This document shows positions 10,192 to 11,876 of a DNA stretch of 50,504 nucleotides, in pieces. How positions within the stretch are numbered: the first letter of the stretch is position 1; the number at the start of each line of letters is the position of its first letter. Below the pieces are notes generated by a model. The model had not been told where the DNA came from. It did not search any database and was given only the letters and a program-made list of their open reading frames with translations. Source of the stretch: Thermogemmatispora onikobensis (GTDB lineage: Bacteria; Chloroflexota; Ktedonobacteria; Ktedonobacterales; Ktedonobacteraceae); NCBI RefSeq assembly GCF_001748285.1, contig NZ_BDGT01000040.1, positions 1 through 50,504 on the forward strand, in the 5' to 3' direction. The position numbers and the translations under genes were made by a program.

Positions 10192-10342
10192 AGAGGTGTA
10201 GAGGCGCGGGTTAAGAGGGGTAACCTGGGAGGGAGCCTGGCCTAGATGGCAGGTCTGCTGTGGTCATGACCTACTGGCTGTTCTCTCTCTTGCCCTCCAC
10301 AAGGTCTTGGGGACCCATAATAGTGGTGAGCTTCGTCCCGAG

Positions 10343-10471
10343 ATGCTTCAGAAGAGTCTACGCTTGGCCTATGAATATTGCTATTTCTTGAAAACGCAGC
10401 TCTACCAGCGTCTACGGCTCTGGGAGCAGCATCATCCCGGCTTCACGCTCTTCCTGCCAGCCGACGAATAA
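10343..10471 (+). CDS. possible small protein, 42 residues
   Basis: An ATG-started frame reads MLQKSLRLAYEYCYFLKT, then a Tyr/Gln/Arg/Leu-rich part, and ends HHPGFTLFLPADE before TAA. The composition (amphipathic, Tyr, Gln, Leu and Arg rich) resembles a short helical protein and not the low-complexity junk of GC-rich shadow frames. The frame stays open upstream to about 10200, so the start is uncertain. The ribosome-binding site is weak (GGTGAG, about 14 nt upstream). It lies about 170 nt after the strong promoter at 10137 and resembles in style the 67-residue protein downstream of the annealing-protein gene. I do not recognise it. The transcript could instead be non-coding. Confidence 0.3.
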   Translation: MLQKSLRLAYEYCYFLKTQLYQRLRLWEQHHPGFTLFLPADE

Positions 10472-10501: not shown

Positions 10502-10614
10502 GTCCTCTCTTGATCAAAATGCCCTTCCACTTTGACCCTCTCCTCTTGGAACGATTCTTTGGAGCACCTGATCTGGCCGCTGGGCACCCCTCTCTCGCTA
10601 AGCAAGCAGCTAGC

Positions 10615-10643
10615 TTGACAGAGGCTCCTCTGCCGGGTACAAT
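10615..10643 (+). promoter_or_regulatory. near-consensus sigma-70 promoter of the annealing-protein operon
   Basis: TTGACA (10615-10620), 17-nt spacer, TACAAT (10638-10643). Predicted start is near 10650, giving a leader of about 175 nt before the coding start. Confidence 0.8.
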
Positions 10644-10644
10644 A

Positions 10645-10662
10645 CTAGAACATAAATTCTAG
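10645..10662. promoter_or_regulatory. LexA/SOS-box-like operator over the start site
   Basis: Perfect dyad CTAGAA-N6-TTCTAG. Its core AGAAC-ATAA-ATTCT differs at one base from the Gram-positive-type SOS box pattern AGAAC-N4-GTTCT. It covers the predicted +1, an ideal repressor site. A second small dyad AGATC-TG-GATCT overlaps its right edge (10661-10672). Assignment to LexA is inference from the pattern and from the function of the downstream gene. Confidence 0.5.
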
Positions 10663-10825
10663 ATCTGGATCTCCTGAGCAGTCGAGCTACGGGTGCTCGT
10701 GAAGTGCCTGGGCGACTCGGCTCGCTCTCACCGCAACGATTTGCACAGCGTCCGGCGAGGTCGTTCAAGGAGGCCAGCCAGTCAGGCGCAGGGCGAGGAA
10801 CAGTCAGAAAGAGGAGACATTGTCT

Positions 10826-11644
10826 ATGACATCTCTTGGTGAGCACTCTCATTCCCAGAGCCGTGAGGAGCAGCGTCCACGTTTCAACCCAAGCGAGCAC
10901 CTGCTGCAGATCAGAAGCGGCAATCGTGGCGAGCTGCGCGACTACCTGCCTGTCCAGTGGCGGCTCGTCTGGTTTCGTGAACTCTGTCCCCAGGGGACCA
11001 TTGAAACCGAGATGGTGCACCTGGATCTGGAGCGTGAGACCGAGGAGGAGTATTACGGCTACAACAGTGAGACCCGGCGCAACGAAAAGATGGTTCGCCG
11101 GGCCAGGGGTTTTGTCATCTTCCGTGCCGTTGTCAGGGATGGCAAGGGAGGCGTTGCCACAGGTACTAAGTCAGAGAAGGCCGCCAGCTTTCCCGATTTC
11201 ATCGAGAAGGCTGAGACGGGCGCCATTGGGCGCGCCCTTGCCGCGCTCGGTTTCGGAACCCAGTTTGCCCCGGAGCTGGATGAAGAGCATCGTATCGTCG
11301 ACAGTCCCGTCGAACGGGCTGCTCCCCACTCTACAGGCGAGCACGCCCCGGAGGCCACGGCGGCCTCTGAGCCGGAGGCTGCCTCCTCCAACGCGCGCGG
11401 GGCTGCCGTCCCTGCTGTTTCCCCATCTCGCCAGCGCACCTCACCGCGATCGGGCAACGGCAGCGACAGCGAGCACGGCCCAATCACCGACCAGCAGCTC
11501 GCCAGCATCCGCAAGCTCTGCGATACTCTCGGCAAGTCGGAGCCAAATGACCTGGCTTCCTGGAACTACGCGGCGGCCCGGGAGCTGATTCTGCAGCTGA
11601 GCCGCGAATATCGCCAGCGCAACGAAAGTCGTAAAGCTTCCTAG
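10826..11644 (+). CDS. Rad52/DdrA-like single-strand annealing protein
   Basis: Resembles the Rad52/Rad22/DdrA group that binds ssDNA ends and anneals complementary strands. The core occupies about residues 20-155: RDYLPVQWRLVWFREL, then TIETEMVHLDLER, GFVIFRAVVRDGKGGVATGTKSEKA, and the hallmark FIEKAETGAIGRALAALGFG. A disordered Ser/Pro/Ala linker (about 160-225) leads to a C-terminal helical segment ITDQQLASIRKLCDTLGK, a tail module also seen on phage and bacterial annealing proteins. ATG at 10826 is 9 nt after GAGGAG; a TTG 6 nt earlier is too close to it. A strong promoter and LexA-like box precede it, and a small ORF follows 28 nt later. No phage gene is nearby. I could not test the family assignment by search. 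Confidence 0.75.
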   Translation: MTSLGEHSHSQSREEQRPRFNPSEHLLQIRSGNRGELRDYLPVQWRLVWFRELCPQGTIETEMVHLDLERETEEEYYGYNSETRRNEKMVRRARGFVIFRAVVRDGKGGVATGTKSEKAASFPDFIEKAETGAIGRALAALGFGTQFAPELDEEHRIVDSPVERAAPHSTGEHAPEATAASEPEAASSNARGAAVPAVSPSRQRTSPRSGNGSDSEHGPITDQQLASIRKLCDTLGKSEPNDLASWNYAAARELILQLSREYRQRNESRKAS

Positions 11645-11660
11645 CGTACACGTACACTAG
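11641..11660. repeat. imperfect dyad at the annealing-protein stop codon
   Basis: CTAGCGTAC-AC-GTACACTAG, nine positions per arm with one mismatch, spanning the TAG stop. It may modulate expression of the downstream small gene. Confidence 0.4.
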
Positions 11661-11672
11661 CGAGGATTGCTC

Positions 11673-11876
11673 ATGTCCTTTAAGCAACTGCAGTATGCCG
11701 AAAAGCGCATGCACAGGCTCTGGCACGATATGGTCGTGGCCGACGAGCGCGGCGCCTCACCCATCGAGCTAGAGCGCCTCTATGATGCCTACTTGCAAGC
11801 TCTTCAGAGCTACCTGCGCTGCTACGAAACCTACCGCCAGGAGTCAGGTGGGATTGACATTCATCGCTGCGCCTGA
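11673..11876 (+). CDS. small helical protein downstream of the annealing protein
   Basis: 67 residues beginning MSFKQLQYAEKRMHRLWHDM and ending SGGIDIHRCA. It is largely helical by composition, with two amphipathic stretches separated by ADERGASPIE and a Tyr/Arg-rich second helix (LERLYDAYLQALQSYLRCYETYRQ). ATG has GAGG 7 nt upstream; the gene starts 28 nt after the annealing-protein stop with no promoter between, so the two should be co-transcribed. I do not recognise the family. By position it may be a partner or regulator of the annealing protein, as small accessory proteins often accompany recombinases; that is inference. Confidence 0.62.
   Translation: MSFKQLQYAEKRMHRLWHDMVVADERGASPIELERLYDAYLQALQSYLRCYETYRQESGGIDIHRCA

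Follow-up and report, generated by a model that had tools for sequence, protein, structure and literature searches.

The window analysed here is a stretch of 50,504 nucleotides from Thermogemmatispora onikobensis and, as we conclude with good confidence, carries a host operon that is repressed by LexA and encodes a member of the Rad52 superfamily acting on single-stranded DNA (ssDNA). Computation supports the operator-like box in front of the operon, its match to the lexA promoter, its conservation, the Rad52 fold of the 272-aa product (here called the annealase) and the conserved operon with a small partner gene. In bacteria, Rad52-superfamily annealing proteins have been described chiefly in phages. 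If a host copy is indeed inherited vertically and controlled by the SOS response, annealing would be a regular part of damage repair in some bacteria, like eukaryotic RAD52. The operon suggests that the Thermogemmatispora family possesses a reserve system of its own for repairing DNA breaks. The analysis further predicts an SOS regulon for Ktedonobacteria. In the literature searched, neither a published regulon nor a LexA motif was found for this class, and no paper on Ktedonobacter LexA or Thermogemmatispora DNA repair bears on the locus. It also yields a candidate partner protein, and thermophilic annealases are possibly useful for recombineering.

The mechanism that we infer comprises LexA binding, damage induction, annealing activity, SSB docking and a role for the partner. 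LexA bound to the box at +1 would block transcription of the two-gene host operon. Upon DNA damage, RecA filaments would provoke self-cleavage of LexA and the operon would be expressed. The Rad52-type protein would then form rings or filaments on ssDNA and pair complementary strands in double-strand-break and gap repair, probably docking on SSB-coated DNA via its C-terminal helical domain, while the 67-aa helical hairpin may well act as cofactor or regulator.

The features of the locus are given in Table 1. Promoter, dyad and two open reading frames (ORFs), all described in an earlier note made from the sequence alone, were confirmed to the base. TTGACA and TACAAT are separated by a 17-nt spacer and form a near-perfect sigma-A promoter (11/12 matches), the sole strong promoter between 10400 and 12060; shuffled sequences contained 0.2 promoter-like sites. 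The gap between the annealase gene and the 67-aa gene is 28 nt. Among named relatives, Thermogemmatispora tikiterensis is the closest at the annealase locus (97% protein identity).

Table 1. Features of the predicted operon and its upstream region (positions in the window).
Feature	Position	Strand	Remarks
Second promoter-like element, genus form TTCCACTTT-N14-GGAACGAT	10525-10555	+	From alignment with relatives and the recA leader
-35 hexamer TTGACA	10615-10620	+	Direct reading; kept across the family
-10 hexamer TACAAT	10638-10643	+	Direct reading; kept across the family
Predicted LexA operator (SOS box) CTAGAACATAAATTCTAG, core GAACATAAATTC	10645-10662	.	Over the predicted start site
Chromosomal single-strand annealing protein (predicted), 272 aa	10826-11644	+	ATG 10826, stop TAG 11642-11644
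Rad52-like annealing core (predicted), residues 19-148	10880-11269	+	AlphaFold pLDDT mostly >90
C-terminal helical domain, residues 216-266	11471-11623	+	Resembles Red-beta SSB-binding domain, lead only
Predicted operon partner, 67-aa helical hairpin	11673-11876	+	ATG 11673, stop ends 11876

Sequence searches gave little indication of what the annealase is. It has no Pfam match at E<=1, searches of NCBIfam and PDB sequences name nothing, and Pfam Rad52_Rad22 (PF04098) matches none of 27 family members. Three PHROG families of unknown function are matched, and 22 columns are invariant across 27 relatives. The AlphaFold model is confident at residues 30-140 and 216-266, which are joined by a linker of low confidence. 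In Foldseek the first 13 matches are all RAD52, with modest E-values (2e-3). Using VIA-align, the core reaches Z 9.9 over 112 residues with RAD52, Z 8.1-8.2 with Sak of phage 80alpha and Z 7.6 with Mgm101, as compared to Z 7.8 for ribosomal S5-type folds. The predicted core has the beta-sheet crossed by an alpha-helix of the Rad52 superfamily, and its alpha-beta-beta-beta-alpha order aligns with human RAD52 45-171 and phage 80alpha Sak, which resembles the RAD52/Sak/Sak3 branch despite the missing Pfam Rad52 match. Among viral predicted structures an uncultured Caudovirales protein ranks first (38% identity), and the match in fourth place carries the name of a PDDEXK exonuclease protein. Membership of the 272-aa protein in the Rad52 superfamily is thereby supported at the level of the predicted model. 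The earlier note had called the protein Rad52/DdrA-like. Its superfamily assignment stands by predicted fold, with RAD52, Sak and Mgm101 fitting best and no non-annealing family fitting, but the support does not extend to DdrA in particular.

The C-terminal residues 216-266 overlay the SSB-binding domain of Red-beta, the structure of which (8tg7) was solved with an SSB peptide. The overlay with 8tg7_A has an rmsd of 1.3 over 51 residues at 18% identity and Z 7.6, a value below 8 which for helical segments can arise by chance; the annealase core is of Rad52 type, not Red-beta. KAS, RAS or VA is the usual ending of both the annealase (window 11633-11641) and the partner across genera, and could be a degradation tag.

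Annealing is likely to be the main activity of the 272-aa protein. RAD52 and DdrA also have mediator or end-protecting roles, and in Deinococcus DdrA is controlled by DdrO/RDRM, not LexA. A Rad52-fold protein could hence be mainly a RecA-loading mediator or an end-protecting ssDNA binder rather than an annealase, and a Thermus phage relative is indeed annotated only as an ssDNA-binding protein. DdrA itself, likewise host-encoded, is named a Rad52 homologue preserving genome integrity (PMC515370). We regard this alternative as rather unlikely, given that Rad52, Sak3, Erf, RecT and Red-beta constitute one superfamily, mostly bacterial and phage, which is defined by annealing proteins (PMC11783212).

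The partner family comprises proteins of 60-94 residues with the pattern YAExRMQQxWYxLxxAEQxGASxxxLERLYxAYxxAVExYNR. They are encoded 3' of the annealase gene in most genomes of the family, and other families of the order show the same arrangement. The partner is modelled as a helical hairpin (pLDDT 90), in agreement with the small helical protein of the earlier note. A search for known relatives found none. Assigning a function from the fold was rejected, since Rop, F-BAR and efflux-pump hairpins score at similar Z. From the shared operon, the chances that the partner serves the annealase as cofactor or regulator appear about even.

LexA very probably controls the annealase operon, a prediction drawn from comparison of promoters. 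In Bacillus the LexA motif is GAAC-N4-GTTC, which by extension holds for Gram-positive bacteria (PMC3323433). The annealase-box core differs from it by one base, as in the earlier note, and follows a like logic of promoter position; the Ktedonobacteral form is TAGAAC-N4-(A/T/G)TTC. In the same genome the lexA promoter reads TTGACT-17-TATCAT followed by CGAATAGCCGTTCTA, the opposite strand of which is TAGAACGGCTATTCGA, one mismatch away from TAGAACNNNNATTCTA, the pattern describing the annealase box. The lexA promoter has the annealase-box core (GAACNNNNATTC) in the equivalent position behind its -10, where the annealase operator too would be in a repressing position. GAAT-N4-GTTCTA directly follows the lexA -10 in 27/28 family genomes with lexA, this one included, 79-163 nt 5' of the matched protein start; the lexA site of G026 (GAAAGGCTGTTC) is one base off. 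The earlier note had staked its SOS reading on lexA and recA not carrying a different box, and alongside the lexA match the recA gene of this genome has the half-site TAGAACAT, identical to that of the annealase box, inside a degenerate site. In other genera of the family, TGGTAC-N4-GTTCTA overlaps the -10 of the recA promoter; the Thermogemmatispora form is TTTGACAGATGTTCTA in 5/6 genomes and CTTGACAGATGTTCTA in G023. These GTTCTA half-sites stand in a conserved promoter. The genome encodes RecA and a LexA that, judged from conserved sequence residues only, is cleavable: it keeps Ala-Gly at the cleavage site as well as the protease Ser and Lys.

A weight matrix built from lexA boxes alone finds the annealase box upstream of most orthologues, ranking these boxes in the top 0.01-0.07% of 316,828 positions. 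The combined pattern of promoter plus box has 36 matches in 12 genomes, as compared to 5 in the control. The 12-base box core by itself, at <=2 mismatches, is not enriched in the whole genome (36 forward/40 reverse versus 78/97 in the reversed control), and the dyad CTAGAA-N6-TTCTAG occurs as a single copy in 5.56 Mb. What makes the box significant is therefore that it lies right after the -10, matches the lexA box and is conserved; sequence counts alone do not. The lack of enrichment, together with an annealase box (CTAGAA...TTCTAG) more extended than the lexA box, would also suit an operator of another repressor, e.g. a dedicated local regulator. We consider this very unlikely, as the lexA promoter has the same core at the same position, recA carries the half-site, and the same box precedes the gene of a helix-hairpin-helix DNA-binding protein in eight genomes.

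This last gene is part of a small SOS regulon that can be predicted from the box and is new beyond the first finding. It encodes a protein of ~205 aa (HHH_8/HHH_5) resembling the N-terminal part of PolX, and the box stands right after its -10 in the eight genomes (L263-L266, L269, L274, L279, L292); in the genome studied here (L147 1188-1862) the box is a variant. In five genomes (L272, L288, L268, L291, L273) a promoter with the box is followed by the gene of a Ser/Thr protein kinase or by the conserved leader of that gene. In Thermogemmatispora and in one further genus, the box also precedes FG-GAP-like proteins for which a membrane segment is predicted (L116/L284, L122, L271, L282, L118); these are candidate SOS-induced membrane proteins. 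Most of 20 weaker box-like sites inspected are without a good promoter. As compared to the Gram-positive LexA regulon, the regulon predicted here has the annealase operon, the helix-hairpin-helix protein and the Ser/Thr kinase.

The annealase gene is present in 28/29 family genomes, almost always complete and in single copy. Among the 28, the box is found 5' of the gene in 27 and directly after the -10 in 25; in G007 and G005 it precedes a first exon split off by a group II intron. The sole family genome with the gene and without the box is G026, where the annealase copy is broken by two in-frame stops. Relatives of the annealase occur in 47/301 Chloroflexota genomes. Several orders outside the family likewise have the box in this position (G298, G090, G054, G210, G093), and variants such as TTAGAACAGATGTTCGTA and CTAGAACTAATGTTCTGG are located right after the -10 in other orders and classes. 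Thermomicrobia-like orthologues have a perfect Gram-positive box, GAACATGCGTTC, between -35 and -10. Upstream of Bdellovibrio and Deinococcales homologues the box was looked for and not found. Two related family genomes, one of them Dictyobacter arantiisoli, have group II introns (RF00029) at different sites within the annealase gene and retain the box before exon 1.

The best-studied bacterial single-strand annealing proteins are phage-borne, whereas the annealase described here is chromosomal, predicted to be LexA-controlled and accompanied by a small partner. The absence of phage genes around the locus, claimed in the earlier note, holds for the neighbours tested, which are ordinary genes (XdhC, an NHL protein, an alpha/beta hydrolase, enolase and an aminotransferase); neither phage neighbours nor a patchy presence was seen. 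Protein distances of the annealase track those of RecA (r = 0.89, as compared to 0.90 for RecA versus LexA), which fits vertical descent. Viral and chromosomal copies intermingle in a tree of 118 sequences, which forces at least 10 label changes; phages and hosts have therefore exchanged the gene on more than one occasion. The Thermus phage relative adjoins genes for a helicase, a Holliday-junction resolvase and a primase, and a gene located two places 3' of the annealase homologue on one viral contig reads SSB-like by eye. None of 60 viral homologues has a box placed after the -10; two core matches among them are both GC-rich and without promoter, with 1.3 expected by chance, and the partner gene is found in 0/61 viral loci. 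The absence of the box from viral homologues makes it a mark of host copies, and the host line appears to have kept its own regulated annealase through phage-host transfers. That the gene is a prophage remnant or recent cargo, with the box reflecting control of prophage induction, finds some encouragement in these interleaved viral homologues (up to 58-70% identity), but it is mostly refuted by phage copies lacking box and partner and, given also the near-universal single copy, the neighbours tested and the tracking of RecA, is highly improbable.

Upstream of the sigma-A promoter, a second promoter-like element seems to be common to annealase, recA, rpsF(-ssb) and polA genes in the family, a result beyond the first finding. 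TTTCCGNTTTT and AAAGAATA, fixed at an N10 spacing, precede most annealase promoters and are found in the recA leader; TTTCCG, 17 nt and AAGAAT look like a -35, spacer and -10. The stretch at 10525-10555 is the genus counterpart of this family-wide TTTCCG-N17-AAGAAT and weaker than in other genera. The exact genus-form pattern occurs once in the genome, and the element in the window rests on alignment with relatives for this reason. With <=1 mismatch, TTTCCG-N17-AAGAAT has 129 matches in nine genomes versus 35 in the reversed control (L213-L262). Genes 3' of it include annealase, recA, polA-like, rpsF and ung-like genes (polA, rpsF and ung identified by eye) and that of a helix-hairpin-helix protein; rpsF usually has ssb in the same operon. 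Many other genes, e.g. for glyoxalases and hydrolases, follow it too, and the element may therefore be a general stress promoter. A tentative reading, to which we give somewhat less than even chances, is a Ktedonobacteral host annealing module under double control by LexA and by the TTTCCG-N17-AAGAAT class, the latter read by a sigma factor or activator and also serving recA, rpsF(-ssb), polA and ung; this module would include the small hairpin as a new helical annealase cofactor. Finally, a short conserved ORF (..LRLAYEYCYFLKTQLYQRLRLWEQHHPGF..) on the + strand at window ~10220-10471 ends 5' of the annealase gene and is shared by five Thermogemmatispora genomes and G011.
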